39,881 nt of DNA from Bacteriovoracaceae bacterium. Lineage in GTDB: Bacteria; Bdellovibrionota; Bacteriovoracia; Bacteriovoracales; Bacteriovoracaceae. Location: assembly GCA_023137315.1 (NCBI GenBank), contig JAGLPP010000077.1, positions 1-39,881 on the forward strand, given 5' to 3'. The notes under the pieces were generated by a model. That model was given only the letters and a program-made list of their open reading frames with translations, was not told the origin of the DNA and made no database searches. The position numbers were made by a program, and so were the translations under genes. Below, one piece after another: positions 9,512 through 39,881 of this stretch. The stretch's first letter is position 1; every line of letters begins with the position of its first letter.

Positions 9512-10144
9512 ATGTACCTTTATACAGATACAACGGATCATATAATAGTTGGCCTGCTTTCCGATGAATTTCAATGGTTGGAATATCATGAGGAGAAGTC
9601 AATAAAAAGAAGTTCGAATGAACTTCATCATACAATATATAAAATTCTGGAAAAGCATGAGTTGAAATTTTCAAAATTGCGTGGGTTTCTTTTTGCGGCT
9701 GGTCCTGGATCTTATACTGGAATGAGGCTCTCGGAAGGGATTGCCCAGATCTGCGAATGGCAGGGAATAAGGGTAAATTCATTTTATCATGTGGATGTTC
9801 CACATCTGTTAAAATCGGAAGAAGGAGTATGGTTTTCGAAGGCATTCAAAGGGGAATATTTTTTTTATGAATGGAAAAGGGCATCTGAAAACAAGAGCAG
9901 GCTTTTAAACGAAGAGGATTTTATACAGGAACTTAAAAAGTTTGACGTAGCAAATATTTATACCAACTTTGAGGATAAAAAACTTCTACAGAATCTGGAT
10001 ATCGATATTGAAATTACTTCAACAGCACATGATATCCGGAAATTTCCCAGGAAAATTTTTCAGGAGGTTGTTGATGGAAATTTGCGTTTTCCGCCGCTTT
10101 ATTATCGTTCAGAAGAGAGTGAGTTTAAAATACCTGCGAAATGA
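9512..10144 (+). CDS. tsaB: tRNA threonylcarbamoyladenosine biosynthesis protein TsaB
   Basis: TsaB is the non-catalytic partner of TsaD in making t6A37 on ANN-reading tRNAs. It has the ASKHA-fold N-terminal strand (MYLYTDTT) and the family motif GPGSYTGMRL around residues 68-77. The C-terminal half is poorly conserved, as is usual. The length of 210 is normal. Its ATG begins two bases after the rseP stop and has no clear ribosome site, so translation probably depends on coupling. Confidence 0.88.
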   Translation: MYLYTDTTDHIIVGLLSDEFQWLEYHEEKSIKRSSNELHHTIYKILEKHELKFSKLRGFLFAAGPGSYTGMRLSEGIAQICEWQGIRVNSFYHVDVPHLLKSEEGVWFSKAFKGEYFFYEWKRASENKSRLLNEEDFIQELKKFDVANIYTNFEDKKLLQNLDIDIEITSTAHDIRKFPRKIFQEVVDGNLRFPPLYYRSEESEFKIPAK

Positions 10145-10801: not shown

Positions 10802-11574
10802 AAAAATTAAAAAAGTTGAGAACCAGTATTGGCAAGAATGTGATTCATGACTCCAGGAAGCTTGCATTCTTTCTTCCAAATATTTTTACGGCCCTGAATC
10901 TTGCTTGTGGCTTTATTTCCATAGTTTTTATTTGGAATGAAAAATACTATGTTGCGTGCATGATACTCATGTTAGGTGTTATTTTTGACATGGTGGATGG
11001 ACGGATAGCCAGATTAACGGGGACACAAAGTGATTTTGGTGAACAATTTGATTCGATGAGTGATATTGTTACGTTTGGGGTTGCTCCATCAATGCTGGTC
11101 TATAATCGTTTTTTTGTGGATTTGGGACGTTTGGGGTTGGTGGTATCATTCCTGTTTTTGCTTTGTGGTGCTCTTCGATTGGCACGTTTTAATGCAAATG
11201 TTGAAAAAGTTCACCCTAATTTTTTCCAAGGTCTTCCCATTCCTGCGGCGGCAGTTGCTTTGGTTGGATACGTATTATTATCGACTGAATTTGATGTTTT
11301 GGCACAGTGGTCACCAATAGCTGTAGTATACGTGATTTTTTATGGTGTACTCATGATTTCAAATGTTCCTTTTTGTTCTTTTAAAAAATCGGAGTGGATG
11401 AGGGCATACAAAAAAAGGGCATTGATAGTTATTTTTCTTATACTTGCGGCTACCTGTGTTTATGAGCAATTTATGATACCATTGGTTATCAGTATTTATG
11501 TTGTTACTTCCTTGATTTATTTTTTATTTCACATGGGTGAGTTAAGGGGAGTATTTGATTGGAAAAATGAGTAG
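10798..11574 (+). CDS. pssA: CDP-diacylglycerol-serine O-phosphatidyltransferase
   Basis: Transfers the phosphatidyl group from CDP-diacylglycerol to serine, giving phosphatidylserine at the inner membrane. The complete CDP-alcohol phosphotransferase signature (DG..AR........G...D...D) spans residues 67-89. The FLPNIFTALNLACGF opening is typical of type II (Bacillus-like) PssA, and several hydrophobic helices follow. I chose TTG at 10798: AGGGG (about 10785-10790) lies seven bases upstream and the codon overlaps the previous stop (TTGA). A longer frame from TTG 10753 would extend into the Psd-like gene. The length is 258. It uses the CdsA product made in the same operon. Confidence 0.93.
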   Translation: MKKLKKLRTSIGKNVIHDSRKLAFFLPNIFTALNLACGFISIVFIWNEKYYVACMILMLGVIFDMVDGRIARLTGTQSDFGEQFDSMSDIVTFGVAPSMLVYNRFFVDLGRLGLVVSFLFLLCGALRLARFNANVEKVHPNFFQGLPIPAAAVALVGYVLLSTEFDVLAQWSPIAVVYVIFYGVLMISNVPFCSFKKSEWMRAYKKRALIVIFLILAATCVYEQFMIPLVISIYVVTSLIYFLFHMGELRGVFDWKNE

Positions 11575-12559
11575 TTGGTCAATGAGATTAATATTTGTTC
11601 TTTTATGCATCTTATTCAGTTTCAGTAGTATTCTTCTTGCAGAAGATTTTGGCCAGAAGATCGTTGTGGAGTCCAGTGGTTTGCTGGATGACGATATGGA
11701 TAAAACCTATAAGGACATTAAGGGGACCAGTGAATTTCTTCCAGGTTTGGAAGGAGATGAATATATTGGACCAAAGACAAAAGAAACAACAAGCTTTTCA
11801 TTGCCAGGAATGCATGGCAATCCAATGGATGTTGATAAGAAAAAATACATAAAGGATGTGGATCATACATCTCTTGGTTCAATGGACGACAAGAATTATT
11901 TTCTGGAATATAAAATTGGTGAGCTGATTGGAGAGATTGAAAATAAAGGAAGATCGGCCATGACATTTAATTATTTCAAAGATACGTATGATTATGAGGA
12001 TTCCGAATCTGTTTTTAACAGGACTTATCGACAGGATTCACGTTCTCATAATATTGGGACTATACAATTGGGATATGACTGGTTTATTAGTCGAAAATAT
12101 GGAGATTTCTCAACAGGATTAAATTTGGGATATGGTTATAATAGCGGGCATGGAATTTTTCAAACAACAAAAGTGAGAAGCAAAGCTGAGTTCAAGCTTA
12201 TTACATTACCTCTTGATGTATCAGTGAAATATGCCAGTGTTATCGGAAGATGGTTCAAAATTGAGCTTTCTGCCGGGCCATCCGTAATGGGCCTGTATCA
12301 GACAAGAAGTGATCGGGATTCTGGAGAAAGAGGGAAGAGAAGAAGACAGATTGGAACTGGATATTTTGGACAGGGGGCACTGAAGTTTAGTTTAAGTGAT
12401 TTATCCCCGAGAGATTTTTACAAGTTGTTTGACAGTTTTTCGATAACGAAGGTTTGGTTTGGGGTTCTGGCAAGATATCAGTATTTTTCAAATTTTCAGG
12501 ACGATATAACGATTTCCGGAAATTCTCTTGGCATTGGCCTTTCTTTTGAGTATCTCTAG
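11567..12559 (+). CDS. Outer-membrane beta-barrel protein, function unknown
   Basis: An exported protein with a signal peptide (hydrophobic stretch ending ILLAED). An acidic, Gly/Pro-containing linker of roughly 90 residues carries two similar segments (FLPGLEGDEYIGPKTK and FSLPGMHGNPMDVDKK). The C-terminal part has alternating, aromatic-ended strands (GTIQLGYDWFISRKYG, FSTGLNLGYGYNSG, LGIGLSFEYL) as in a small outer-membrane barrel. Two starts are possible: TTG 11555, with AAGGGGAG three bases upstream, or ATG 11567, whose signal peptide begins more normally. I use the ATG. It overlaps the end of pssA and precedes truA by five bases, so it is co-transcribed with lipid genes. No specific family was recognised. 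Confidence 0.72.
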   Translation: MSSWSMRLIFVLLCILFSFSSILLAEDFGQKIVVESSGLLDDDMDKTYKDIKGTSEFLPGLEGDEYIGPKTKETTSFSLPGMHGNPMDVDKKKYIKDVDHTSLGSMDDKNYFLEYKIGELIGEIENKGRSAMTFNYFKDTYDYEDSESVFNRTYRQDSRSHNIGTIQLGYDWFISRKYGDFSTGLNLGYGYNSGHGIFQTTKVRSKAEFKLITLPLDVSVKYASVIGRWFKIELSAGPSVMGLYQTRSDRDSGERGKRRRQIGTGYFGQGALKFSLSDLSPRDFYKLFDSFSITKVWFGVLARYQYFSNFQDDITISGNSLGIGLSFEYL

Positions 12560-22001: not shown

Positions 22002-22955
22002 TTATTCGATATCAATATTCCAGTCGTTGACAGGTACAGGCAGCGTTTTTGGATAAATATACGATGGGTCGGGGGTTGGGATAATATCAGGAATTGGAGC
22101 TCTTTCTTTCGGTTCATCCTTTGGTGTCCATTTAAGTAAATTGTTTTTGGACCTGGTTTCTCTGACATCCAGCTTTTCCAGATCGAGAATAGTATATATT
22201 TTTTTGATGGTATCCTCTTCTGTTTGGCCCTTTGTTTTGTGCACGGCAAAAAAGTAAAATTGCCCAGGTCTTTTTTCAGAGACTTTCTTATTTCTTAATT
22301 GCGAAAATGCAGAACAATATATTTTCAAACGATTCAGTGTTTCAAACATGATTGGAAATAACAGGTCTTCAAGCTCATCCGGTTCTTTGGAAACAAAGAT
22401 ATGTGCCCAGGGCAGTATCAGCTTAAATCGGCTTTTAAGCTGTAAAAAATTTTTATTAAAATTTATTTTTCCATCCTTCAGGTATTTTAGAATGTTTTTA
22501 TAAAGTTTGTGATTAATAAGTTCATGTAAATCACTTTTTAGGATTTCGGCCATCCAGAGTGAGTATGGAGTAAGCTTTTCCCTGTTGTTTTGAATGTATT
22601 TATCAAGTTTTTCCAGAATAATCTTTTCGTAATGGCTTTTTCTTAAATTCAGTTGTGGTTTTTTCTTCATTAATAATTTATAAATTTCAGTTTTAAAAAG
22701 AAACATAAGTTCCAATCTGTCCATATTTCTTGAACAATTATCAAGAATAATGATTGATTTCTCAAAGTCGGCATATTGATTTTTATCAAGCACATTCTTT
22801 TGCATTGAGGTGACGAGATATTGGAACTCAAGTGGGTAGTACGATTTGGGCGTGTATATAATGTCTGCCCCAAACGTCGAATTCATTAAAATATAAAAAA
22901 TAATAATGTTAGCCACAATCGTTAAATACTGTTTTTTCGTGTATTTCCTGCTCAA
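22002..22955 (-). CDS. Exported protein of unknown function (third gene of exported trio)
   Basis: 317 residues with a basic start (MSRKYTKKQ), a hydrophobic stretch and a likely cleavage site after STFGA, hence a periplasmic or surface protein. The body is rich in Lys, Leu and Ile and mostly helical by eye. The tail is Pro-rich with two similar PIPDIIPTPDP / PKTLPVPVND segments. I do not recognise a family. It overlaps the upstream gene by four bases (ATGA) and ends 47 bases before hisS, so it is translated together with its upstream partner. Confidence 0.75.
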   Translation of the reverse strand: MSRKYTKKQYLTIVANIIIFYILMNSTFGADIIYTPKSYYPLEFQYLVTSMQKNVLDKNQYADFEKSIIILDNCSRNMDRLELMFLFKTEIYKLLMKKKPQLNLRKSHYEKIILEKLDKYIQNNREKLTPYSLWMAEILKSDLHELINHKLYKNILKYLKDGKINFNKNFLQLKSRFKLILPWAHIFVSKEPDELEDLLFPIMFETLNRLKIYCSAFSQLRNKKVSEKRPGQFYFFAVHKTKGQTEEDTIKKIYTILDLEKLDVRETRSKNNLLKWTPKDEPKERAPIPDIIPTPDPSYIYPKTLPVPVNDWNIDIE

Positions 22956-24022
22956 AATGTACTGCCTGGAATTTTATCATTTTCCATATTATTTTTTCCA
23001 ATTACCAGATAATATTTTCCTCTGAACGGACAAATTAATCTGCCATCAATATTGATTACCTGTGATGCATATTTAAGATCCGTTAATATTGAAATTTTAC
23101 CTGATACGGGTTCAATCGATACAATTTCATTATTTATTTTTCCAGAGGATGTTTTCAGGGATTTTACAAAATATAGATTGTTGTCTGCCATTGAGCAGAT
23201 GATATTTCCGATATCGTTCAGGTCGGAATGATATATTTTGCGGGAATTTTTCATAGTGATATTTGTGATTTTATCAATGACCTGTATGGTGCTGCTTTGG
23301 TTCCTCTTCCCAATGCCAAAATGACCAACGTATAATTTATTATTGTCCAGACAAAGTTCAATCTTTGCCATATGAGTTTTTCCCTTGAGGATTAGATCAA
23401 ATTTTTTGTTATTTATGGAAAAGCGCATAATCCCAGGCAGGCCCTTTTCGTCCAAATCCGTATATATAACGGTTTTATTATCAGGCATGACAACACTTGG
23501 AACAAAATAATGATTTATTTTGTTTGCAAGGGATATTTCGAATTGCAGTTCCTTATGGCCCAGATTCTGAAAATGTATTTTTCTGTTGTAAGGGTTGAAA
23601 TATGAAATCCAGGAATCATTCAGATGCAGGGTTGGGTTTGTTCCCATGCCAAGTAATTCAGCTTCATTTTTTCCAAATTCGACCTGGTAAAGTTTATTAA
23701 GTTGTCTGATATTGTAATAATAATGATAGTCCCCGGAAACGGAGATGATGATTTTTTTTCGCCACTTTGATCCATAAACCTTGTATTGTGTTAATTTTTG
23801 TCCCTTGAGAACACTACGGATATTGTAATTTGAAGAGAGAATCAAGTCACCTGAAGATCGTTGGTAATAAGTATATTTTCCGTCGGAGGAAATAAAGCGA
23901 ATGTTATGAATATCCTGTTTTGTAGCCAGTATTGGTAACTTGCTTTTGGCAAAGGTAAATTTGGAAAGTAACAGGCAGATTAATAATATTAAAAAACGAA
24001 TTATATTATTTTCTGATTCCAT
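22952..24022 (-). CDS. Exported beta-propeller-like (TolB/DPP-IV-like) protein
   Basis: 356 residues with a signal peptide ending FTFAKS. The mature part is built of repeated blade-like segments such as SSDGKYTYYQRSSGDLILSS and MPDNKTVIYTDLDEKGLPGI. They follow the pattern of TolB or dipeptidyl-peptidase-type propellers. No catalytic serine-protease motif is visible, so it is more likely a binding scaffold. Its start overlaps the preceding gene by 17 bases and its end overlaps the next by four. The propeller call is from repeat pattern only. Confidence 0.7.
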   Translation of the reverse strand: MESENNIIRFLILLICLLLSKFTFAKSKLPILATKQDIHNIRFISSDGKYTYYQRSSGDLILSSNYNIRSVLKGQKLTQYKVYGSKWRKKIIISVSGDYHYYYNIRQLNKLYQVEFGKNEAELLGMGTNPTLHLNDSWISYFNPYNRKIHFQNLGHKELQFEISLANKINHYFVPSVVMPDNKTVIYTDLDEKGLPGIMRFSINNKKFDLILKGKTHMAKIELCLDNNKLYVGHFGIGKRNQSSTIQVIDKITNITMKNSRKIYHSDLNDIGNIICSMADNNLYFVKSLKTSSGKINNEIVSIEPVSGKISILTDLKYASQVINIDGRLICPFRGKYYLVIGKNNMENDKIPGSTF

Positions 24023-25958
24023 ATAGCATCCATGTATTGAGTGGGTGAATCCTCTGAAAACCGGTTATTGCAGCAAAAATTTTATTCCACATGATTAATC
24101 TTGGTGTATGCACGTCATCCATTGGTGTTCGAACGGATAGTAGTAATTCATTTGTGTTATCGAAAACCCCGTCGATAATAAAGGGGGTTGGAGAACAGTC
24201 ACTGAGAGTATGTGAACGAAAAAATCGTGGCAAAAGATTCTCGGCGCATCCCACCCCGTGAATAATTGCGTTTGGATTATTTTTCAGGAAATTTGTCAGT
24301 ATGGTCAAATTTGGTATCCGATTGCTTTTTAGTGCGAATTTTTGACGGATAATATGATCCATCGAATTTTTTTCATGCATATACGAATTGGGAAAATACT
24401 CGAAACGTAACTTTCCCTCGTATTTAATTCCGGTAATTATTTTTCCACGGAAATAGATATTTTTTGGACAGTTAAAACCGGTACATTTCATTTTGTCCAC
24501 GACGATAAAGCATCCGTTTTTATATTGAAGAAGGAATGGATTATATTGTGTTTTGTCTATGATTTTACAATCTTCCTTGTAACTGGAACCTTTTATTCGA
24601 TTCAGGATTTTTGCCATTACTTTTTGCTCTGCCAGACTACTGGATGGATGCTGGCCCGGGATGTATGATTCGCACTTGTTTTTGTTGTCAACCGGATTTA
24701 TGTAGCATATTTTTAAAGGCCAGATGAGATTGTTGGTGGCACTGATGACAACGTTGGCAAAATCCTCCATGGTTTCATAAACACATGCTGAAGGATTGGT
24801 TGATTTTTTATCATCGCTGAAATGTTCCAGTATCCTGTTAATATTTACAATATTTTCATAATCAATTCTTCCAGGACAGTCTTGATATGAAGTTTTTAGA
24901 CGTGAAACAGAAAGGGCCTTCTCCATGGTCTTACAATCCGGCTTTGGGAAAAACGATGGATATTGTGTAATACCGAGTGTCGTACATCTGTTAATATCGT
25001 CATTCATGAGTTTGATACATTGACGTAATTTGTTTGTGTCAAGCTTGTTGTTCCTCAGTAACAATTTACATCTGTGTTGCATATAATAAAGGGGCTTTTC
25101 TCCACGTACAATTTCCTCCCAGAAACCGGGACTTAAATATGTGTTACAGAATTTATCAGGTGATTCAATATGTCTGCACAGATTTTCCATATATGTTTGT
25201 TGGAACAATGGAATTTGTTTTTCATAACGTCTTCCTGACGAAGTTATCGCTCTTTGCAGCGCACTGAGGGTTGTTTGATAATTCCTGTTCCTCTTTATTT
25301 TTTCACGAATTTTTCGACTCAGGGAAATGCTTTCAGGGAATTTACAGATATATGGCAAATAAAGGTGGGTTTTCCATTCATCGAAAATTTTCTGACATTC
25401 ATTGCGATTTTTTGGAATTTTAAATTTTATTGAATTTATTGTTTTGAGATAGTTTGTTGAATTAAAAATTGTTGAGACTGATTTATTTTTAAAACATCTG
25501 GTCTTGTAAATGTGCTCCAGAAGAATCTTTTTGGAGACAAGTACTGTTTTTTTTATCTTATTTTTCGTAATAATATCGATTAATACATCATTTATAAGAC
25601 CATTGGTCGTCTTAAGAAGATTGTTTTCCATTAGTGCATAAAAATTGCACAGACCATTATTTCCGGAAATCATGTTAATGTATTTTGAATCGGAGTTAAA
25701 AAGGATGGTTTTTATAAACGGAGTGGATATTGCAATTTCCTTTATTTCTTTCAGATCATTCCGTTTAATTCGGTATGCATTAGCTGATTTCATGGCCTTG
25801 GTGAAGTGTTCCCTGTTGATGTGGACAAAGTTATTTATTGATTCAAGTATACCGGGAGGGCCATCTTCAGGAGTTTTTTTGGTGTTCGCCAGGATGTTGT
25901 TTCCTGTAACGCAACTGATGAAAATCAAAAATTTCAGTGTCAAAAGGAACTTTGACAT
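24006..25958 (-). CDS. Large cysteine-rich exported protein of unknown function
   Basis: 650 residues with an N-terminal hydrophobic signal. It could be cut after NNILA by signal peptidase I, or be a lipoprotein at Cys16 (FISC, an imperfect lipobox). About 20 further cysteines are spread along the chain, often in short motifs such as CTGFNCPK, suggesting several disulfides in the periplasm or at the surface. I recognise no family. It is the first gene of the minus-strand run that continues through two more exported proteins into hisS-valS, so its promoter should lie in 25959-26049, where I see no strong one. Confidence 0.75.
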   Translation of the reverse strand: MSKFLLTLKFLIFISCVTGNNILANTKKTPEDGPPGILESINNFVHINREHFTKAMKSANAYRIKRNDLKEIKEIAISTPFIKTILFNSDSKYINMISGNNGLCNFYALMENNLLKTTNGLINDVLIDIITKNKIKKTVLVSKKILLEHIYKTRCFKNKSVSTIFNSTNYLKTINSIKFKIPKNRNECQKIFDEWKTHLYLPYICKFPESISLSRKIREKIKRNRNYQTTLSALQRAITSSGRRYEKQIPLFQQTYMENLCRHIESPDKFCNTYLSPGFWEEIVRGEKPLYYMQHRCKLLLRNNKLDTNKLRQCIKLMNDDINRCTTLGITQYPSFFPKPDCKTMEKALSVSRLKTSYQDCPGRIDYENIVNINRILEHFSDDKKSTNPSACVYETMEDFANVVISATNNLIWPLKICYINPVDNKNKCESYIPGQHPSSSLAEQKVMAKILNRIKGSSYKEDCKIIDKTQYNPFLLQYKNGCFIVVDKMKCTGFNCPKNIYFRGKIITGIKYEGKLRFEYFPNSYMHEKNSMDHIIRQKFALKSNRIPNLTILTNFLKNNPNAIIHGVGCAENLLPRFFRSHTLSDCSPTPFIIDGVFDNTNELLLSVRTPMDDVHTPRLIMWNKIFAAITGFQRIHPLNTWMLYGIRK

Positions 25959-28517: not shown

Positions 28518-30998
28518 GTGCTGAGTATAATATTATTTGATAGAATACATGATTTGTACAAATTTGAGTGGATTAAGAACGAAGAAACCACAACCACTGT
28601 TATATGTCCAAATCCCCGTGCGGCAGATGATTTTAGAAATCGTATTCTGGGTGTGAACACCGCTGTGTCGGCGATTAATGATACAAAAAATTTTACAGTT
28701 ATCACTATTTCCAAATTTGTTGCAGACGAGTTGAAAAAAGGTTTTGGAAATCAGCTGGATTCCCTGCGGAAAAATAAATCTGATTTGATGATTTATCTTG
28801 GAACGGTTTGGAAAAAATATTTTCCAGAACTTTCCTTTGAGGTTTTTGACCAGGTATTCAATCTGTTTACAACATTTAGAAGTTATACATTGGAATTTTC
28901 ACTAATAGAGGAGATTCTGAAGGAATATGATAAAACTGTTGCGGATGGGATTTGTATCTTCTGGCAAGTATTGGACAGTCTTGCGATTGTCGATGAACAC
29001 AAGAGTTATTCAATTTTATCTGAAGCCTATAGGATTAACGATCATCAGGTTTATCGTGACAAGTATTTTTCCGGTGAAGGATTTAATAATATTGTTTTTT
29101 GGGGTTTTACGCAATTGACTGCAATCCAGGTTGATTTTCTCAAGGCATTGGGGATCAGACATAATGTATTTATTCCATTTCAGGAATCAGTATACAGGGA
29201 AAGCATGAATTCGGACTGGATAAACTGGTTGGATGCTGTTGAGGTGAATGTTGCAGGTAAAAAGGAAGTTGAAAAGGTTCTGGATATGACGGTGTTCCCA
29301 GCGGGACGTATGAACGAGTATATTGATAGAACTGTAGATTTTTCGCTTACATCCACCATAGTGGATGTGTATCTTGCAGAGAGATGTCCGTCTGTGGAGC
29401 AGATTAATGAGTTTCCGCTGGACGGACTTTTTTTTAAAGCAAAAAATAATTTTTTTCATGGTCAGTTGAACATGATTATGGAATTTTTTTCTGAAAAATA
29501 TTATTTCTCAGGGGAATCGGTTGTCGAAACAGAGCAACTTTACAGTGATCTGGATAAAATAATAAAGGATGAACTTGAAAAAAAGGATTATCGAAAAATT
29601 AAAATTTGTCTTTTGTTCAAGCAGACAATTGATAAATGGGAGAATATTTCGGATGAAAACAGGATGGTGGATTATTTTTGTCTAAAACTCCTGGCAAATG
29701 TTTGTGAGCTTGATCTTCCGAGAGTATTTTCCTCGCCTCTTTTGCAGAAAAAACCCGGGGGGAGAATCAGCGGTATTGAGGAGTTGGAAAGATTTGATCA
29801 AAACGCGCTGAATATTGTTTGTGTGACGAGCAGATATTCCACACTAAAAAGTACAGTTGAAAAGCATGAACCCAAAGTAATGGAATTTTTAAAGTCGATT
29901 GGGCCTTTGCATAGAAGTGAGTTTGAATTTCTGATATTGAAAAACAGGCTGACGGATATTTTGCAAAGTGATGGGGCGATTCTTTTTATTGAGAATGGCC
30001 TTGTTGACTTTGATGTCGGATGGAATCAGGTGATTGGAGATTTTGAGCGAGTGAACATTTCGGAAATTTCTTCCGTGGAAAAAACAAAGGCCGTGGATTT
30101 ACTGGCAGAAGATCCTGTGGTTGATGGAAATACGGTAAAAAGGATATCTGCATCAAGATTGCAGGCGTATATGGATTGTCCAAGGAAATATTATTTTAGT
30201 TATGTGGATTCGCTTGGAGGAAAAATCTCTCTCCATAATTCCCTGATGCCTGATCAGCTTGGCATACTGGAACACTTGACTGTTGAGGATTATATCAAGG
30301 AATATGATTTATTGGACAGGCGTTCAGTCAGGAAAATTGCACAAAAAAATCTTGAAAGGTATCTGGGTGACAATGGAATAATTCTGGATAACTACCGCAA
30401 GGAATCATATCTTCGGGAAATAGTGGATTATTCATCGAATGGTATTTTGCCGTTGTTGCAGATAAAGGCCGCAGATGGGAATACTGAATTGAAGTTTGAG
30501 AAGGAATTTTCAGATAAAAAAAACAGTGACATGTTTTTTGGAAGACTGGACTGTCTGATTGAGAATACGAATATGATGGGCATTGTCGATTTTAAGCGGT
30601 CTGCCGCAAGTATCCCCAGAGTGGGGGATTTGATGAATATGGAGAAGATTCAACTTTGGTTTTATCTGAATCATAATTCGCAATACCTGGACAGGATATC
30701 CTTTTACGGTTTTTGTTGTCTTTCCGATGTCGAAAAATCAGTTATTTTTTGCAGCAGTGAGAGCGTATACAATCGATTGAAGGAGATAAAATTTATGGGA
30801 GAAAAGAGAATTATAAAAAGAATTCTTGAACCAAAAGAATTTATTGCCGGATATTCGCTGCATGAAGAGAAAATTGTTGAGAGGATGAAAAAAGAAAATA
30901 ATTATGATCCAATTCCCGCGACATCGGATGTGTGTAAATACTGCCAGGTAAAAAACCTCTGCTCAAGGTCAGTGATACAGGACGAAAAAGATGTCTGA
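28518..30998 (+). CDS. addB: AddB-like subunit of the AddAB helicase-nuclease
   Basis: Non-motor partner of AddA in double-strand-break end resection for RecA loading. The N-terminal two thirds resembles an inactivated helicase: it starts with VICPNPRAADDFR-type sequence and has no Walker A. The C-terminal PD-(D/E)XK nuclease has GRLDCLI, GIVDFKRS and QLWFYL. Cys554 (in DCPRKYYF) with Cys806, Cys809 and Cys815 (C-x2-C-x5-C) forms the iron-staple pattern typical of AddB and Cas4. The length of 826 is shorter than Bacillus AddB (about 1166). The start is GTG 28518 with no clear ribosome site. It overlaps addA by eight bases. Confidence 0.85.
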   Translation: MLSIILFDRIHDLYKFEWIKNEETTTTVICPNPRAADDFRNRILGVNTAVSAINDTKNFTVITISKFVADELKKGFGNQLDSLRKNKSDLMIYLGTVWKKYFPELSFEVFDQVFNLFTTFRSYTLEFSLIEEILKEYDKTVADGICIFWQVLDSLAIVDEHKSYSILSEAYRINDHQVYRDKYFSGEGFNNIVFWGFTQLTAIQVDFLKALGIRHNVFIPFQESVYRESMNSDWINWLDAVEVNVAGKKEVEKVLDMTVFPAGRMNEYIDRTVDFSLTSTIVDVYLAERCPSVEQINEFPLDGLFFKAKNNFFHGQLNMIMEFFSEKYYFSGESVVETEQLYSDLDKIIKDELEKKDYRKIKICLLFKQTIDKWENISDENRMVDYFCLKLLANVCELDLPRVFSSPLLQKKPGGRISGIEELERFDQNALNIVCVTSRYSTLKSTVEKHEPKVMEFLKSIGPLHRSEFEFLILKNRLTDILQSDGAILFIENGLVDFDVGWNQVIGDFERVNISEISSVEKTKAVDLLAEDPVVDGNTVKRISASRLQAYMDCPRKYYFSYVDSLGGKISLHNSLMPDQLGILEHLTVEDYIKEYDLLDRRSVRKIAQKNLERYLGDNGIILDNYRKESYLREIVDYSSNGILPLLQIKAADGNTELKFEKEFSDKKNSDMFFGRLDCLIENTNMMGIVDFKRSAASIPRVGDLMNMEKIQLWFYLNHNSQYLDRISFYGFCCLSDVEKSVIFCSSESVYNRLKEIKFMGEKRIIKRILEPKEFIAGYSLHEEKIVERMKKENNYDPIPATSDVCKYCQVKNLCSRSVIQDEKDV

Positions 30999-33900
30999 AC
31001 GAACTCCAAATCCTGAACAACTAAAGGCAATCAAGCACACGGGTGGAGTGATTTTGAGTGCAGGGGCCGGTTCAGGTAAAACATTCGTAATTATTGAGCA
31101 TCTGATACATCTTATTAATGAATTTGATAAAAAGATCAAATCATCAGGAGAGGATGAATACAGAAGAAGGATGACGGAGTATCTGACATCAATAGTGGTA
31201 ATGACTTTTACGAGAAAAGCGGCCGGTGAATTGAAAATAAGACTGCAAAACAGAATCTCCGGCATTAATGGTGCCAGGTGGGAAATTACAAAAGACATCG
31301 TTGACAAAATAACAGTGACCACCATTCACGGGTTTTGCCATAAGCTGCTTTCTTCGGGTTATATAACGGATTGTTCTGCGAAATTTGAAATTATCGGCGA
31401 TCTGGAACTTCGTGGGAAGATTGGAAAATTTTTCAAGCTATGGTGTCTTGGAAAAAAAGATGAACGCAATCCGGCGGTCCTGAATGTGTTGAATCATCAT
31501 GTCCAGGTGGGAAATGCGATAAATGATATTTTCCTGTCTTCTGAATTGCGGTTGATGTGGAGGGATATTGATCCACAAATGGAAAAAACGTGGGGCGTTG
31601 AAGATTATTTTGTGGAATTACTGTCTGCGCTTAATCTGTTGGATATTTTCAAGAATGGTTTTTCTCTCGAGGATTGCGGGGAATATTCAGCAAAGAAATG
31701 GTATCAATTTATTGAAAAATTCAACAAGACAAGGATGGAACTTCTTGATCTGAGACCCGAGACAATGCATCAATTGGCTGAATATTTTGCAACCAACAAG
31801 TATCGAATGCCGGCGGCCAAGGATGCTCCTGATTCGGCGAGGGAGTTTTTTAAAAGATTAAATATTTTAAAAAAATTTATAAAGGACAATCAGGAACATT
31901 ATTTGAATTATTCCAAAGGGCACGACGGAGCATTCAGAGAATGGCTTTGTGTTTTCAAGGAGATTTTTGATTTTGTTGATGATTTGTATGACAGCGAAAA
32001 TGGGAAAACATTTTCCGATCTGGAATTTTATGTATTAAACGGGTTGAAAAATAATGGAAATGATTGCGAGAGGATTGGAAAAAATTTCCGTTATTTTATT
32101 GTGGACGAATTTCAGGATACTTCAAATATTCAATGGGAAATTATTCAATTATTGATTGGAGAAAAATACGATCGTCTTTTCGCGGTGGGTGATATAAAGC
32201 AGGCAATATACGGATTTCGAGGCGGAGAGTTGGGTGTTTTCAAGAAATGTCTTTCGGAAATGTCGAATGATGGAAGGCTTACGTTGAGGAATAATTATCG
32301 TTCTTCAAAATCAGTTATAACATTTAATAACAAGCTGTTTGATTATGTATTTCCACTTGGAGAGGGATATACGGGATTTGATTATCAGACTGTTCCGGGA
32401 GAACCGCAGGAATATCCGGGATCATCGGGTGATGACAATAATGGGGAAGTTGTCAGTCTTGATTTTCAACTTATTCCTTCCAGTATTGAAAAAAACAAGT
32501 TGTCCGCAGATGAAATAAATTATTATGAGGCCTTGAGTATACGTGAGAAAATACGGGAAATTTCGACAAGGAGACCAGGGGAAAGTATTTGTATCTTATA
32601 TCGAAAAATGAATCCGGCACTTTTTCTTGTGTCACTTTTGCTGGATGATGGTGAATCATTTGTTTCGCAAATCAAGATACCAATGAATGAAGATCCCGTA
32701 TGGGGTATGTTTCAGGTGCTGCTTGAGTGTAGAGTTGGATTCAGGGAAGTTAAAAATCAAAAACAGGCAATCGACAAGTATGGAAATTTTATTCTGGGTA
32801 AATATCTTGAATCCATGAAAATTTCAACTTGTCTTCAGGATGCGATTGATCAGTTTCAAAATGATATTCTATTCATGGGCCTGTTTGAGTCTTTCAGGAA
32901 ATTTTTATTTGTTCTGGGGATTTCCAATTCAAATTATTCAAACAATATGAAAAATATACAATCAGTGTGTCAGATTTCAAAAGATGATCCTGAAGAAGCA
33001 TTGTATTTGATGAATGAAAAAATGGATCAAAAATATACAACGGAATTTCAAACAGGTAGTGGAGACAGGAATATACATATCATGTCATGTCACGCATCGA
33101 AGGGTCTGGAGTTTGATCATGTGATATTGGGTGGAATCCTTACAAACGGGGCAACTGCTGCCGATCGAAGTTTTATCGGAAAATATCCGGCAAGCATCAG
33201 GTGGAAATTGGATGAGAATTCCGAAAAACCGGCAAAATCACCAAACCTGATTCTTGAAAATATTGCTCGAAAGAAAAAGGAGTTTTCTGAATCCAAACGT
33301 CTGTTTTATGTGGCCTGTACCAGGGCAAAGAATTCTTTAAGCTGGGTGGACATATCCTTAAACAGTGAACCATCCATCTCGAATAAAAATAGCTGGATTC
33401 TTGCCGTGCGTAATTGGAGTGAGCTACAGCGACTGGATGGAGCAAATGATATTATCTCAAATATTTCCAGGCAGGAAAAATATGAATGTGATTCACAACT
33501 TTTGAACCGGATTTTAAACAACCCTCCATTTTTCCACAGGGATAAACTTGGAATGCAGAAGAAGGCCAAGGATGATTTTAACAGGAAGGATGAACTGGCA
33601 ATAATGTCAGAGCTATCCGTAACCAGGCTTGCCACAATCGCAGATTGTCCCAGGAAATTTTTTCTTTTGAATGTTTGCAAATTATCACAGGAGGATGTTA
33701 AGGCCGTAACAGGAAAAGGAGAGGATTTTTCATATGAGGTAAATATTGAAGATGAGACGATTGATGATATGGAGGAGGTTAATCAGAAAATTCGTTCGTC
33801 CAGTGAGCGTGGAACAAAAATTCACTATATGATTTCCGAGGTGATAAGGAATTCATGGAAAATACCTGATGCAATGGTTGCCAACAAGGAAGAAATACAG

Positions 33901-34350
33901 ATTTTGGATTGGATTAAAAGTAAATTGAAAATTTTTGACAGTTCACATGACTTTATTTCAGAAGAGGTTATCAAGTTTCCTCTTTTCGGATATATGTTGT
34001 CAGGTATTCCAGACTTGGTTCTCAAACCAAAAGAAACAGCAGGAGAATATATTATCTGGGATTTTAAAACCGGAAGTAGAAAAAAACATGAAAAATCATA
34101 TTGGTTTCAACTTTTCTCTTATGCCAGGGCAATGTTCGATCTTAATTCTTATCCGGAAGAAAATGTTGTTGAGCTGGTATTATGCTATCTTGATGAAAAA
34201 AAATTAATTACAAAAAAAGTCAACTACAAGGATATTGATGAATACCTTGCATCTGAATGGAAAAAGTTGGCACGGTTTGATCTTTTTAATTCGGAGCACT
34301 GCGCCATCTGTAACTATGGGAAGTTATGTTTGCTTTCTTGCACGCCTTAA
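30991..34350 (+). CDS. addA: AddA-like UvrD-family helicase-nuclease
   Basis: Motor and nuclease subunit for double-strand-break repair. The N-terminus has a Q-motif Gln10 and Walker A AGAGSGKT (24-31). It continues with TFTRKAAGELK, Walker B VDEFQDT (371-377), GDIKQAIYGFRGG and MSCHASKGLEFDHV. The RecB-type nuclease has His945, Asp1008, Asp1024-Phe-Lys1026 and QLFSYARAM. Unusually for AddA it also carries iron-staple cysteines: Cys886 (DCPRKFF) and Cys1104-x2-Cys1107-x5-Cys1113. The length is 1119. Its ATG lies inside the end of addB, so the two are co-translated and should form one complex. Confidence 0.93.
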   Translation: MSERTPNPEQLKAIKHTGGVILSAGAGSGKTFVIIEHLIHLINEFDKKIKSSGEDEYRRRMTEYLTSIVVMTFTRKAAGELKIRLQNRISGINGARWEITKDIVDKITVTTIHGFCHKLLSSGYITDCSAKFEIIGDLELRGKIGKFFKLWCLGKKDERNPAVLNVLNHHVQVGNAINDIFLSSELRLMWRDIDPQMEKTWGVEDYFVELLSALNLLDIFKNGFSLEDCGEYSAKKWYQFIEKFNKTRMELLDLRPETMHQLAEYFATNKYRMPAAKDAPDSAREFFKRLNILKKFIKDNQEHYLNYSKGHDGAFREWLCVFKEIFDFVDDLYDSENGKTFSDLEFYVLNGLKNNGNDCERIGKNFRYFIVDEFQDTSNIQWEIIQLLIGEKYDRLFAVGDIKQAIYGFRGGELGVFKKCLSEMSNDGRLTLRNNYRSSKSVITFNNKLFDYVFPLGEGYTGFDYQTVPGEPQEYPGSSGDDNNGEVVSLDFQLIPSSIEKNKLSADEINYYEALSIREKIREISTRRPGESICILYRKMNPALFLVSLLLDDGESFVSQIKIPMNEDPVWGMFQVLLECRVGFREVKNQKQAIDKYGNFILGKYLESMKISTCLQDAIDQFQNDILFMGLFESFRKFLFVLGISNSNYSNNMKNIQSVCQISKDDPEEALYLMNEKMDQKYTTEFQTGSGDRNIHIMSCHASKGLEFDHVILGGILTNGATAADRSFIGKYPASIRWKLDENSEKPAKSPNLILENIARKKKEFSESKRLFYVACTRAKNSLSWVDISLNSEPSISNKNSWILAVRNWSELQRLDGANDIISNISRQEKYECDSQLLNRILNNPPFFHRDKLGMQKKAKDDFNRKDELAIMSELSVTRLATIADCPRKFFLLNVCKLSQEDVKAVTGKGEDFSYEVNIEDETIDDMEEVNQKIRSSSERGTKIHYMISEVIRNSWKIPDAMVANKEEIQILDWIKSKLKIFDSSHDFISEEVIKFPLFGYMLSGIPDLVLKPKETAGEYIIWDFKTGSRKKHEKSYWFQLFSYARAMFDLNSYPEENVVELVLCYLDEKKLITKKVNYKDIDEYLASEWKKLARFDLFNSEHCAICNYGKLCLLSCTP

Positions 34351-34424: not shown

Positions 34425-35153
34425 ATGACGATTAAGTTTTCTTTATGCTTTTTTGTAGTTTCATTTTTATTTCTATCTGTAGTTCAGTCCATCAGGGCGG
34501 ATGAAGGATCAATTTATAATTTCTCATGGCTCGATCCTGATAAGGAGGTTTATGTACTTCAAAATAGAAAGTATCGAAAGGTTTCAAGAGCACATATAAA
34601 TTTAGGTTATGCTCACACACTTTCCGGTGCCTTTATTGATGCACACGGGTTGCAGGGGCGTGCAGGTTTTTTCTTCACAGAAAACTGGGGATTTGAAGGA
34701 ATTTACTCCAAACAAAGTGGGAAGGAAAACGAAACTGCTGCATCTGTAAGGAATGTTGGTGGGACTGGTTCTGTTCCCTTCAGGAGAATTACAGAGAGCT
34801 ACATGGGGGCCATGCTTCTTTGGTCACCGTTTTATGCAAAAATAAATACTTTCAATAAAATTGTTTATATGGATTGGATCATAGGAATTGGCTATGCCAC
34901 GTTAGAGGAAAAAAATAATCGAGAGGAACTTGATCGTACTGTTATTAATTATGTTCCCAAATCGGAGACTCATGGTTCCATCATGTGGGACATGGCATTT
35001 AAATTTTATTTTTCGGAGAATTGGCATACCAGAATTGATTTGACGGCAATCCATTACAAGGCCCAGAAGGCAACTACGACTTCAACTGCGGCCGATCAGA
35101 CGTGGTTTTCAAATTTTGATTTAGTGGTATCTCTTGGTTTGAATATTTTTTAA
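34425..35153 (+). CDS. Outer-membrane beta-barrel domain protein
   Basis: 242 residues with a signal peptide (ending SIRADE) and alternating amphipathic strands. These include INLGYAHTLSGAFIDAHG, GRAGFFFTENWGFEGIYS, WIIGIGYAT and DMAFKFYFSENWHTRIDLTAIHY, with a terminal strand VVSLGLNIF ending in Phe, as BAM-inserted barrels do. It resembles the small outer-membrane barrels that accompany TPR proteins in Deltaproteobacteria and Bdellovibrionota. CAGGA at 34412-34416 precedes the ATG by eight bases. It is first in a tight cluster with two exported TPR proteins and a TPR lipoprotein, so it is probably the outer-membrane part of that assembly. Confidence 0.8.
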   Translation: MTIKFSLCFFVVSFLFLSVVQSIRADEGSIYNFSWLDPDKEVYVLQNRKYRKVSRAHINLGYAHTLSGAFIDAHGLQGRAGFFFTENWGFEGIYSKQSGKENETAASVRNVGGTGSVPFRRITESYMGAMLLWSPFYAKINTFNKIVYMDWIIGIGYATLEEKNNREELDRTVINYVPKSETHGSIMWDMAFKFYFSENWHTRIDLTAIHYKAQKATTTSTAADQTWFSNFDLVVSLGLNIF

Positions 35154-35168
35154 TGAAGGATGGACAGG

Positions 35169-36560
35169 ATGTTCAGAATTTCAACTTTTTTTTCAATGCT
35201 GCTTATATTATTCACCACCTTTACGCTGGCACGTGCTGGAAATTCATATGTGGAAACAGCCAGTGAACTTGTGGATAACAATCTTTATTTTACAGCGGTT
35301 CCGTACATGAAGGAGTATCTCGCCGTTGGAGGTGTTGCATCAAATAGCAGGGTGGAGGATTTGATTGATGAAATTATTACAAATACTGGAGTAAGACAGT
35401 TCGAGGTTTTTCCAATAAGGATACTTGAAAGATCCAATGCTCCGATTATCAGATATATTCTGGCCAAAAAATATTTCAGACGTGGAAAGTATGACAGGGC
35501 GCTTGGAAATTTAAGAAAAAAAATCTCCACCAGGCATTCTGTAAAACCGTTTGCACTTTTACTTGAAGCGAGTATTCATGCTATTCAAAAACGCTATGCG
35601 AGCGCCGTAAAGGTGTATAAGCAATGTATTAATGTTTCCAATATGCACATCAAAAGAGAAGGTGATCCCAACAGAAGCAGACAATTATCTGTGAATCGCG
35701 ATAATTGTATAGTTGGAATACCACGGGCACAGTTTGCAGCAAAAAAACACAACGTGGCCAATCTGTCATATTTGGATCTTTCCAAAGAATCATATATCTG
35801 GCCCGAAATTCTTTTTGAAGAGGCATGGAATAGTTTTTATATGGAGGACTATAACAGGACTCTCGGTAAGCTGGTAACGTACAAGGCCCCGGTATTTGAC
35901 TATATATTTAATCCGGAAGTGGATGTTTTAAGGGCCCTTTCGTACCTTCATCTGTGCCTATATAAGGATGTGAAAAAAACAATTGATGAATATTATTCGA
36001 GATATGAAAAGGAAACGGATCGTCTTCATGGTTCACTTCGTAGATATGGAAAAAATTACAAGTTGTTCTTTTCCCTGGCAGACAAGGCAAGGACAGGAAA
36101 ATTGGGGGCAAAAAACAGGATACTTGGGAGAATGTTAAAAGCGATATTAAGGGATCCGGCGTATATAGAACAGAGGGCGGCATATTCAAAAGGATTGAAG
36201 GAAATAGAGGCATTGTCGAATTTGGATGGAAGGAGAAAAAAAAGGGAGTTTTTACGAAATCTAAAAACATCATTGGAATTGCAGCGTGATTTAATAGGTT
36301 CTTATGTCAGGAAAAATCTTTACATGTTTATAAGTCAGCTTAACAAGGGCTTCGAGGGTATGAGTAGTATCGGCCTTGAGATAAATTATCGCAGGAAGGA
36401 AAGAATCTACAGGGGACTTGGTGATTTTGACAGGACAAGAGGTGATGTAAAATATCTCAAAAGAAATGATAAGCAGTATTATTGGTCTTTTAATGGTGAG
36501 TTTTGGGCAGACGAGCTTGGTGATTATGTGTTTGCCCTGCGGTCGGAGTGTTCCAAATGA
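35169..36560 (+). CDS. Exported TPR-like protein, function unknown
   Basis: 463 residues from the ATG at 35169. AAGGA (35156-35160) lies eight bases before it; the ATG at 35160 would overlap that site. A signal peptide ends TLARAG. The mature protein is helical with TPR-like pairs (RYILAKKYFRRGKYDRALGN, LLEASIHAIQKRYASAVKVY, LFEEAWNSFYMEDYNRTLGK). Many basic residues follow in a long helical C-terminal half. It is probably periplasmic and a protein-binding scaffold. It starts 15 bases after the barrel gene and its stop overlaps the next ATG (ATGA). Confidence 0.8.
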   Translation: MFRISTFFSMLLILFTTFTLARAGNSYVETASELVDNNLYFTAVPYMKEYLAVGGVASNSRVEDLIDEIITNTGVRQFEVFPIRILERSNAPIIRYILAKKYFRRGKYDRALGNLRKKISTRHSVKPFALLLEASIHAIQKRYASAVKVYKQCINVSNMHIKREGDPNRSRQLSVNRDNCIVGIPRAQFAAKKHNVANLSYLDLSKESYIWPEILFEEAWNSFYMEDYNRTLGKLVTYKAPVFDYIFNPEVDVLRALSYLHLCLYKDVKKTIDEYYSRYEKETDRLHGSLRRYGKNYKLFFSLADKARTGKLGAKNRILGRMLKAILRDPAYIEQRAAYSKGLKEIEALSNLDGRRKKREFLRNLKTSLELQRDLIGSYVRKNLYMFISQLNKGFEGMSSIGLEINYRRKERIYRGLGDFDRTRGDVKYLKRNDKQYYWSFNGEFWADELGDYVFALRSECSK

Positions 36561-39430
36561 AACTGAAACTATTTTGGATAATCCTCATTCTAACGATTAT
36601 AAGTTTAACAAGTGTCATGGTTCATGCTGTAAGTAATGACAGCAGAAGGCAGCAGTTGATTTCAGTTATTGATGATGAGCTAAGAGAGGTTACGAGGCTC
36701 AATAAAAGAACGAGAGGGCGCAAGCCGTTGTTGTTTCTCAGAATGGCAGAACTTCTTCTTGAAAAGGCCAGACTTGTCAAGGAGGGGGAAAATAACAAGT
36801 ATATGGCCATGAGTGCCGATAAAAGGCGAAGGGCAAACAAGAAAAACCACTTTAAAAATTCAAGAGGATATTTCAAACAGGCACAAAAAGTTTGTTATCA
36901 TATCTTTAAAAAATTTCCACATATAAAACAGAAGGCGGAGGTTTACTACATTCTTGGTTCGAATGCGGCGGAGTTTCAGGATTTCAAGCGTGCAAAAAAG
37001 TATTACAAGATGGCAATAAAAGGTTCCACCAGAAATCGAAATCTAATGCTTAGAACGAAACTTGCCTTGGCGGAGATGCATTATAATGATGGCGAGTTTC
37101 GCCAGGCAATAAGTTTGTATGAGGATGCATTAAAAAAACATCGTGATAAATGGTGGACAAAAGATGCTTATAATCTGGCCTGGAGCTATTTTAAAGAGCG
37201 TAAATACAACAAGGCAATATCCAGAATGAAACAGGTTTACAAGATGAGCAAGGGAGCCAGATTTGTAGATGTTTCAGAGCGTGCCAGACGTGATTTGAGT
37301 TATTTTTCCGCAATGGCCGGCAAACCACAGACAGTGGGACCTCCACAAACAGGTGAAGAGCTTGTTAAAGTTGCAAAATATCTGTTGAGCTACGGTAAGT
37401 ATTTGCAGGCAAGAAAGACTTTTATAAGCGCATTGAATAAACTTACAAGTGACAAAGACAAGGTTGAAGTTCATGTGAATCTTTTGCAACTGTATGAACG
37501 CTCGAGGTCTTATCAAAAACATCTGCAAACCTCACAGACACTGGCAGGCTATTACAGAAAAAACATACTTAATGATGAGCAGAAGGAGATTTATAAATTA
37601 CAATTGAAAAAGATGGCATCCATTCTTCAAAATCAAGTGGTCGGAAAGACCTATCTTCATGAAAAGAAAAAAAGAACAAGAAAAACTCGTCAAGCGGTGG
37701 GCTATTTTGATGTGTTGACAGGGGTAGATCACAAGAACGCTTATATGTATCACTTCGCAGCAGCGGAGACTCTTTATGCTGTGGGAAATTTTAATCACGC
37801 TATTGATTATTATGACAGGGCCTATGAGCTTTCAAAAGTTGCCAGGAATAAAAAGATTGAAAAGGAGGCACAGAAAGGCCTTATTGTTTGCATTCAGCAA
37901 AAAGGTGTGTCGAGTGCCAAGAAGAGAAAATATACAGTGCAGGTGTATAATGATTATTTAAAAAATCATCCGAGATCGCAAAGAGCTTCAGCGATTTATC
38001 AGAGGCTTTTTTTGGAATATATGAGAAAAAACCTGGTGGACAAGGCAGAAGATGTATTGGTTCGTTTTAAGCGTTATTTTCCAAGAGAGCATCAAAAACA
38101 GGAAACCATGCTTGCGAAAATCATGGATTATTACAAAAAACGCCAGGACAAGGCCAATTTTTCAAAATGGGTTAAAAAGATCAAAAGAAGGGAGTTTATT
38201 GTAAATCCAAAATACGCAAAGCAGTTGGGCAGAATTCTTCTTGCCATGCAATTTGAGAGTGTACAGGGTTTTGTTACAAAAGGTGATAAAAAGAAGGCAC
38301 TCAGGGCTTATGTGGATATATACAAGGATCCCGAAACATCAACTGCTGCAAGAAGAAATGCAACATATAATATTATGTTGTTGTTTCATGAATTACGTGA
38401 TGCTAGAAGAACTGTTGGCTGGGCAAAAAGAGCATTAAAGTTGATGAATCCAAAAGAGATTCTAAGATTTGAAACCAGTTTCCTGACGATTGCTGCGGAA
38501 TTATTCAGTAGAAGAAAATTTGAAGATTCAGTTTTAATATACGAAAAGACATTGAAAAAACTTTGTAATACAAAATCAAAAAACAAGAAGACATTTTTTA
38601 AGAATGCTTACGTCATCCATCTTTCAGAAAAGAAAGTGGAGGAAGCCAAATATCTTATCCAGCAAACCGCAAATTGCCACATTCCTGAAAATGTTGTGAA
38701 CGAGGCTCGCTTGGAAATACTTAAATCACTAAAAGAACTCGGGAGATGGAATTCCGTTGAGAATCAGATTGCCAAATTGGAAAAAAAACGCAGGATGTGG
38801 CCGGAGTTGATAGGGCCAATTTACCATTTAAAAAATGCGTTGGAGAGAAACGGTAAATTTGATCTGGCACGTGGAATGAAAAGTAAAATCATGCGTTTTT
38901 ATAAATATTCCAGGAAGAGGAAAATGAAAATTCCACTTAGTGGTCTTGATGTTGTTGCCCATTACAAGGTTCAGGAACTGGGAGTAGTTGTTCAGGAGTT
39001 TAACAAGTTAAAACTTGCGTTTCCTGAAAAAAACTATAATTCTCTTTTGAAGAAAAAATTTGCAAAACTTGACCGACTGACGGCCAAGGCACTTGAGATT
39101 CTTTCTGTTGGATCCGGGAAAGGTCTTGTTAGAGTCTATAAGGTGCTGATTGAAAGTTATGAATCCATTGTAAGAGAGATGAGGGAGTTTACTCCTCCCG
39201 GTAAGGGACCGGAATATACGAAATCGTTTCGAAAAAGCATGATACAAATTTCCTTGCCAATTTTGAAAAAGGTTGGTGAATTCAAAAGTGAGGCAAAAAG
39301 ACAGATCTCGGGTAATAATATTTTATCGAACGAAAATTATCTGTTTATGTCTTCAGCAAAGCTACCCATAAAGATTGAATATCAGTATTCGCCGGGAGCG
39401 GTCTTGATGGACAGGGGAGGCCGCAGATGA
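36557..39430 (+). CDS. Large exported tetratricopeptide-repeat protein
   Basis: 957 residues from ATG 36557, preceded by GGAG (36545-36548); an upstream GTG at 36548 is less likely. A signal peptide (ILILTIISLTSVMVHA) leads to an array of TPR-like helix pairs, for example YYILGSNAAEFQDFKRAKKYYKMA, AYNLAWSYFKERKYNKAISR and YHFAAAETLYAVGNFNHAIDYY. Together they form a long, very basic solenoid. It suits a periplasmic scaffold. By size and setting it recalls the TPR proteins of the Myxococcus Agl/Glt gliding complex, but this is analogy only. The stop overlaps the next ATG (ATGA). Confidence 0.85.
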   Translation: MKLKLFWIILILTIISLTSVMVHAVSNDSRRQQLISVIDDELREVTRLNKRTRGRKPLLFLRMAELLLEKARLVKEGENNKYMAMSADKRRRANKKNHFKNSRGYFKQAQKVCYHIFKKFPHIKQKAEVYYILGSNAAEFQDFKRAKKYYKMAIKGSTRNRNLMLRTKLALAEMHYNDGEFRQAISLYEDALKKHRDKWWTKDAYNLAWSYFKERKYNKAISRMKQVYKMSKGARFVDVSERARRDLSYFSAMAGKPQTVGPPQTGEELVKVAKYLLSYGKYLQARKTFISALNKLTSDKDKVEVHVNLLQLYERSRSYQKHLQTSQTLAGYYRKNILNDEQKEIYKLQLKKMASILQNQVVGKTYLHEKKKRTRKTRQAVGYFDVLTGVDHKNAYMYHFAAAETLYAVGNFNHAIDYYDRAYELSKVARNKKIEKEAQKGLIVCIQQKGVSSAKKRKYTVQVYNDYLKNHPRSQRASAIYQRLFLEYMRKNLVDKAEDVLVRFKRYFPREHQKQETMLAKIMDYYKKRQDKANFSKWVKKIKRREFIVNPKYAKQLGRILLAMQFESVQGFVTKGDKKKALRAYVDIYKDPETSTAARRNATYNIMLLFHELRDARRTVGWAKRALKLMNPKEILRFETSFLTIAAELFSRRKFEDSVLIYEKTLKKLCNTKSKNKKTFFKNAYVIHLSEKKVEEAKYLIQQTANCHIPENVVNEARLEILKSLKELGRWNSVENQIAKLEKKRRMWPELIGPIYHLKNALERNGKFDLARGMKSKIMRFYKYSRKRKMKIPLSGLDVVAHYKVQELGVVVQEFNKLKLAFPEKNYNSLLKKKFAKLDRLTAKALEILSVGSGKGLVRVYKVLIESYESIVREMREFTPPGKGPEYTKSFRKSMIQISLPILKKVGEFKSEAKRQISGNNILSNENYLFMSSAKLPIKIEYQYSPGAVLMDRGGRR

Positions 39431-39881
39431 TTAAGATGTTAATTCTGATTTTTATTGCAGTTGTTATTTCGGGATGTGGAACCACGGGAAAAAAAGGTGT
39501 TAAACTTGATGGTGATTTTGATGAGATAGAAAACAAGGATTTTAAGGCGATCCCGGAAATCGAATATATTGAGCATGAAGATTTATTTGTGGATGAGGTT
39601 TCACAGACAGATGCTCTTTCAAAAGAGTCTTTGGCGAGACTTCCTGAACCAAAATTGCAAAGGGCCGGAAAAGTGGATAATCCCATCTCCAAGGGAATAA
39701 GTCTTTGTTACCAGAGACGGTTTACAGAGGCCTTCAAACTTCTGGATGCAGCTTATTTTAAATACAAGGGACATCCGAGTTACTGGAATCAGGTTGGCAC
39801 ATGTTATTTCCTTCAAGGATGGAACAGAAAAGCATTTCTTTTTTATAACAAGGCACGTGATTTAAATCAAAAATATGCTCC
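39427..39881 (+). CDS. TPR lipoprotein, 3' end cut by window
   Basis: The first 151 codons are present and the frame is open to the window edge. Lipobox VISGC gives lipidated Cys17. A Glu/Asp-rich linker is followed by TPR-like pairs (ISLCYQRRFTEAFKLLDAAY, WNQVGTCYFLQGWNRKAFLFYNKA). GGGGAGG at 39414-39420 lies six bases before the ATG, which overlaps the previous stop. With the barrel and two soluble TPR proteins it would tether the assembly to a membrane. Confidence 0.85.
   Translation, partial: MIKMLILIFIAVVISGCGTTGKKGVKLDGDFDEIENKDFKAIPEIEYIEHEDLFVDEVSQTDALSKESLARLPEPKLQRAGKVDNPISKGISLCYQRRFTEAFKLLDAAYFKYKGHPSYWNQVGTCYFLQGWNRKAFLFYNKARDLNQKYA

Follow-up and report, generated by a model that had tools for sequence, protein, structure and literature searches.

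What kind of machine is encoded by the four genes that fill the last 5.5 kb of contig C199 (GenBank JAGLPP010000077.1) of a Bacteriovoracaceae bacterium? This contig, which in its full length of 39881 bp is the window analyzed here, belongs to a draft genome of 3.15 Mb in 223 contigs, and the closest named relatives, judged by the locus, were Bacteriovoracaceae and Halobacteriovorax species. An earlier note, made from the letters of the window, had proposed an undescribed envelope-spanning machine paralleling the Glt/Agl gliding complex of Myxococcus. The parallel was borne out and could be sharpened to homology, as the second gene matched the curated GltC model and GltG and a motor adjoin the locus in relatives. 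We conclude that homologous Glt machinery is almost certainly encoded here, and that the locus is probably the outer-membrane and periplasmic part of a Glt/Agl-type trans-envelope machine, most likely used for MglA-controlled gliding and prey contact. As for the role by itself, which is argued by analogy, we lean towards gliding or prey contact.

Contrary to the view that no component can be named, the products were assigned as a GltA/GltB-type barrel and GltC-, GltD- and GltE-like proteins. For this, equivalence to the Glt proteins of Myxococcus xanthus was based on curated models and on genome G109, which we take to be that of Bdellovibrio bacteriovorus HD100. Its locus at 0.78 Mb, with the order barrel, barrel, GltC, GltD, GltE, GltF, GltG, AglR, AglQ and AglS, fits Bd0828-0838. 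Gene 1 of the window scored 88.6 bits against TIGR04565 (cutoff 60), and its AlphaFold model (mean predicted local distance difference test score, pLDDT, 83) had eight strands, with OmpA, OmpW and OprG as the nearest solved folds; the gene 1 profile matched the second barrel of the HD100 locus with an E value of 1e-26. Gene 2 matched NF033756 (gliding_GltC; 112.6 bits, E 2e-32) over ~350 residues, including columns outside the tetratricopeptide repeats (TPRs), at a score below the equivalog cutoff of 450, which was reached neither by gene 2 nor by any of 59 relatives. Its C-terminal FWADELGDY motif is common to nearly all aligned GltC members, and its model is a helical TPR solenoid (mean pLDDT 86), for which only generic or designed TPR proteins were found as relatives in the PDB. 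The database matches of gene 3 were generic only. However, its full-length profile alignment with the GltD family of Bd0828-0838-type loci covered 936 columns (E 8e-60), and the GltD profile, when run over the whole HD100 genome, matched glt-cluster proteins only, with the GltD of the Bd0828-0838 locus at the top. TPRs were also present in gene 4, which carries the lipobox ISGC and shares 41% identity with the first-listed of its full-length relatives, proteins of about 300 aa. The GltE family profile matched the HD100 GltE over 282 columns (E 3e-34).

The gene order was then compared in 20 annotated loci of relatives and 80 named Bacteriovoracaceae loci, with counts made where there was enough sequence. 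The order in the named loci is addA-barrel-GltC-GltD-GltE, mostly followed by a GltF-sized protein, GltG and a convergent AglS-AglQ-AglR operon. The barrel gene, with addA immediately upstream of it, precedes GltC in 77 of 77 checkable relatives, while GltC is followed by GltD in 68 of 69 loci and then by GltE in 65 of 66. Further on, 52 of 59 loci encode a GltF-sized protein (~85 residues) and 49 of 59 encode GltG; the convergent motor operon was found in 38 of the 45 loci that have GltG and nearly 10 kb of downstream sequence. The GltG proteins of relatives combine an FHA domain with an AgmX/TonB C-terminus (NF033760, E 5e-38 in the near-complete genome G002; the AgmX/PglI tail, NF033768, above cutoff), and the weak GltJ matches fell on GltG proteins. 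Since the barrel with addA and GltD are kept in 77/77 and 68/69 cases, respectively, the operon is more than a chance grouping. The checks suggested in the earlier note, namely hidden Markov model searches against Glt families and a search downstream for FHA, TonB or ExbBD-like genes, thus gave GltC in the window and GltG with an AglRQS-type motor in relatives. Lack of synteny or of a motor partner nearby, which the same note had named as grounds for rejection, was found in neither case.

An unrelated TPR/barrel assembly, resembling Glt through its repeats alone, is extremely improbable. The similarity of GltE is indeed generic, as its profile also matched a 630-aa TPR protein of HD100, but the GltC match extends over non-TPR columns, the GltD profile is confined to glt-cluster proteins in HD100, and the order with GltG and the motor is conserved.

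The coordinates of the locus are given in Table 1. The four genes are packed as described before, with a 6-bp gap followed by two 4-bp ATGA overlaps, and domain matches, structural models and the lipobox agreed with a barrel, two exported TPR solenoids and a TPR lipoprotein. All four products begin with a signal sequence. The solenoids are very basic, as had been noted (pI 9.7 for gene 2 and 10.1 for gene 3; 7.8 for gene 1). Because the window is the whole contig, the locus runs off the contig end, as anticipated, within gene 4. Meanwhile, a promoter of its own was not supported: no promoter-like site was found upstream of the operon, and in the upstream regions of 78 loci the best promoter match averaged 8.3/12 versus 8.0/12 in shuffled sequences. 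Genes 1 and 2 had no match among phage protein families. The addA gene lies 74 bp upstream of the barrel gene; it is a conserved neighbor that presumably does not belong to the machine.

Table 1. Genes of the Glt-like locus and the adjoining addA gene in the window (contig C199).
Feature	Position	Strand	Product length	Assignment
Gene 1	34425..35153	+	242 aa	8-stranded outer-membrane beta-barrel, GltA/GltB-type (TIGR04565 OMP_myx_plus)
Gene 2	35160..36560	+	466 aa (463 from next ATG)	GltC-like exported TPR protein
Gene 3	36557..39430	+	957 aa (GTG alternative start at 36548)	GltD-like exported TPR solenoid
Gene 4	39427..39881	+	151 aa visible (5' half, cut by contig end)	GltE-like TPR lipoprotein
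addA	30991..34350	+		AddA-type UvrD helicase/PD-(D/E)XK nuclease (UvrD-helicase and PDDEXK_1 domains)

Parts of the machine were also found elsewhere in the same draft genome. At the very edge of contig C113 (L067) lie AglQ and AglS together with an AglR that is 78% identical to that of a relative; beyond the motor come sugar-isomerase, RDD and polA genes, arranged as in G002. On the strength of this synteny with relatives, C199 and C113 appear to lie on either side of an assembly gap, in which GltF, GltG and the remainder of GltE would be expected. AglQ retains its proton-carrying membrane Asp, and the corresponding residue is conserved in AglS. Contig C101 carries the gene for MglA, which acts as the polarity switch in gliding (L168:1294-1884; E 4e-87 to M. 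xanthus MglA). Directly before mglA, within L168:782-1884, there is a gene for a 169-aa protein that by eye is possibly roadblock/MglB-like, and a recR-like gene lies upstream. The FHA proteins of contig C205 were considered as the missing continuation of the locus and rejected, as they matched only the FHA part of GltG and the FHA/TPR proteins lie beside a phosphatase-like gene. This region of C205 (L008, 211-4152) encodes two FHA-TPR membrane proteins and then, judged by eye, a PP2C-like phosphatase, possibly a separate phosphosignalling operon.

With the parts and their linkage seen in the sequences, the transmission of force, the movement and the role may be carried over from M. xanthus and B. 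bacteriovorus. As in Myxococcus, proton flow through AglRQS would move GltG, which crosses the inner membrane, and GltG would pull on the periplasmic TPR proteins GltC, GltD and GltE. These would in turn be coupled to the outer-membrane barrel and to adhesins or polymers of the surface, and the outer layer would thereby be dragged along the cell. The most likely use of such a machine would be MglA-controlled surface gliding together with the prey-contact step of predation. A Tol- or TonB-like function, in which AglRQS and GltG would supply energy not to surface movement but to uptake, secretion or upkeep of the outer membrane, is considered improbable, although no systematic search was made for Pal or TonB-dependent receptors in the vicinity. 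The motor proteins do match TolQ/ExbB/ExbD models, the C-terminus of GltG is TonB-like, and the Bdellovibrio operons were originally interpreted in this way (PMC2797640); however, the GltC- and GltD-specific profiles and the FHA/AgmX architecture of GltG mark the gliding set and not Tol-Pal or TonB.

The machine is of a known kind, given the match to HD100 Bd0828-0838 and the published operons, and the earlier term "undescribed" is incorrect: homologous operons of B. bacteriovorus (Bd0828-0838 and three others) were described in 2010-2011 (PMC2797640, PMC3169522). The four tonB/agl operons of this species, which differ in expression, were reported in 2010 and first taken as TonB-like systems (PMC2797640). 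Of these, Bd0828-0838 was proposed as the best candidate for a Bdellovibrio gliding apparatus and the set closest to aglRQS (Luciano et al. 2011, PMC3169522), and cells with an insertion in Bd0838 (aglS) were defective in attaching to prey, in killing it and in rounding it (PMC6561027). Like the loci compared here, Bd0828-0838 has the order barrel-C-D-E-F-G with the motor adjacent, and all nine proteins gave profile matches. In contrast to them, it has two barrels before GltC and a motor that is co-directional after GltG, whereas the window type has one barrel, addA upstream and, in relatives, a convergent motor; GltC and AglR of the window type and of HD100 also fall into separate clades. In M. 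xanthus, gltA-H mutants are unable to glide (PMC3169522). The GltC (673 aa, TPR), GltD (1191 aa, TPR), GltE (a TPR lipoprotein), GltF (89 aa, exported), GltG (FHA and TonB) and AglRQS of that species have counterparts of like kind in the window or in the syntenic loci of relatives. The M. xanthus genes, unlike those of the window locus, are scattered over three clusters (PMC3169522); the window locus has no counterparts of GltH, GltI, GltJ and GltK, its GltC, GltD and GltE are shorter, and it has one barrel fewer. HD100, too, is reported to be without GltH, GltI, GltJ and GltK (PMC3169522).

A second, paralogous and complete Glt/Agl set was found in the same genome on contig C160 (L004, 2390-13713). 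Its order is a MIDAS/CglD-like VWA adhesin gene (matches to NF052240 and NF033765 below cutoff), barrel, GltC, a small GltF-like protein, TolQ, two ExbD, GltD, GltE and GltG. This type B differs from type A, to which the window belongs, in that its motor genes are inserted between GltC and GltD, with all genes on the same strand, and in that it has the adhesin gene upstream, no addA neighbor and a long stem branch in the GltC tree. Both types were present in most of the relatives examined; type A also occurs in the culturable Halobacteriovorax marinus and Bacteriovorax sp. BSW11_IV. Types A and B together make up one family-specific clade in the GltC tree (100/99). Its sister group consists of sequences from other families of the phylum, each present as a single copy, with addA adjoining in 3 of 5 loci; we take these families to belong to the class Bacteriovoracia. 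The AglR tree has the same split with lower support (90/100). Since the trees were rooted at the midpoint, the direction of duplication is inferred. The simplest reading is that the whole machine, motor included, was duplicated in the ancestor of the family. Type A would then have kept the old addA-linked place by vertical inheritance, and type B would be a faster-diverging, family-specific duplicate; on these trees, the adhesin-less, addA-linked type A is probably the copy held in common with other Bacteriovoracia families. The second set with its adhesin gene and the A/B split within the family are new in detail, and the adhesin-linked paralogous set serves as an internal comparison.

The absence of a VWA/MIDAS gene next to type A (0 of 80 loci), with such a gene present in type B, speaks for another explanation, according to which type A moves or organizes a surface polymer or protein layer and does not serve cell gliding, as Nfs does with AglRQS on Myxococcus spores. 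The adhesin-less single operon barrel-C-D-E-F-G also resembles the single nfsA-H operon, which is collinear with and paralogous to gltA-H and uses the AglRQS motor (PMC3858216). We nevertheless regard a function of this kind as unlikely, as the same order is found in Bd0828-0838, which among the HD100 sets was considered the nearest to aglRQS (PMC3169522), and prey attachment requires the AglS of that locus (PMC6561027). Nor is type A an orthologue of Nfs, because the Glt/Nfs duplication is recent and lies in a terminal deltaproteobacterial branch (PMC3858216). Nfs differs further in sharing its motor with Glt rather than having its own and in its task of spore-coat assembly (PMC3858216).

One genus-level clade keeps barrel-GltC-D-E-F and has no GltG or AglRQS at that place (L045:8324-10903; likewise L070, L075, L077, L078, L079, L081, L083, L084, L094 and L096). 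Among the nine loci with nearly 10 kb of downstream sequence and no GltG, the motor adjoins in none. When AglR was searched for at 1e-8 in seven genomes of this genus, no match was found genome-wide in four, and the other three gave distant matches only. The joint absence also points to GltG and the motor working together; as the nine loci are closely related, it counts as one or few events. The genus is a natural test of whether both act as one unit. In L045, the position of GltG is taken by a 234-aa protein that weakly matches SPOR. The type B locus found in that genome (L046) has one ExbD, a very divergent TolQ and a GltG-like protein that is short. A further suggestion, tentative and rather doubtful, is that the ancestral type A has a different job, such as handling of polymers or prey surfaces, and the adhesin-linked copy glides; in this genus, the ancestral outer complex would function with neither GltG nor AglRQS, either driven by another motor or serving as a static scaffold.

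Several points weigh against the assignment of the window locus to a gliding and prey-contact machine of the Glt/Agl type. A type A GltG was sought in the assembly, and only the C160 copy was found. One of GltA and GltB is missing from the locus, and none of GltH, GltI, GltJ and GltK was recognized in the syntenic loci, for which no genome-wide search was made. As both GltC and GltG score below the NCBI equivalog cutoffs, their one-to-one equivalence with the M. xanthus proteins is not established, and because the TPR similarity is generic, the name GltE for gene 4 rests on synteny. Since some relatives keep genes 1-4 without GltG and AglRQS, a motor-independent use of these genes is possible. 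Finally, no report of gliding in Bacteriovoracaceae was found in the literature searched, and for this reason an Nfs-like or prey-handling role is conceivable for type A.

According to a 2026 review, the gliding machinery of Bdellovibrionota is unidentified and a major open challenge (PMC13104615). The locus provides a fully itemized candidate in a predator family besides Bdellovibrio, comprising an outer barrel, three periplasmic TPR proteins, a GltF-like protein, GltG and a dedicated proton motor.

Some further observations were made on other loci and elsewhere in the window. In one Bdellovibrio-labelled metagenome-assembled genome (L114, starting near position 10001), GltC is apparently fused with the GltD frame behind it into a 1443-aa open reading frame, either a real fusion or an assembly error. 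In four loci of other families (L154, L155, L156 and L166), GltD is longer (1154-1247 aa) and a separate GltE was not found, so that the end of GltD may incorporate GltE there. On the minus strand of the window, at 22002-25958, three consecutive open reading frames downstream of hisS (317, 356 and 650 aa) encode exported proteins to which no function was assigned. At 11555-12559, before truA, a further outer-membrane barrel is encoded, which matches the Bd0486 and MXAN_2562 families weakly and in both cases below cutoff.

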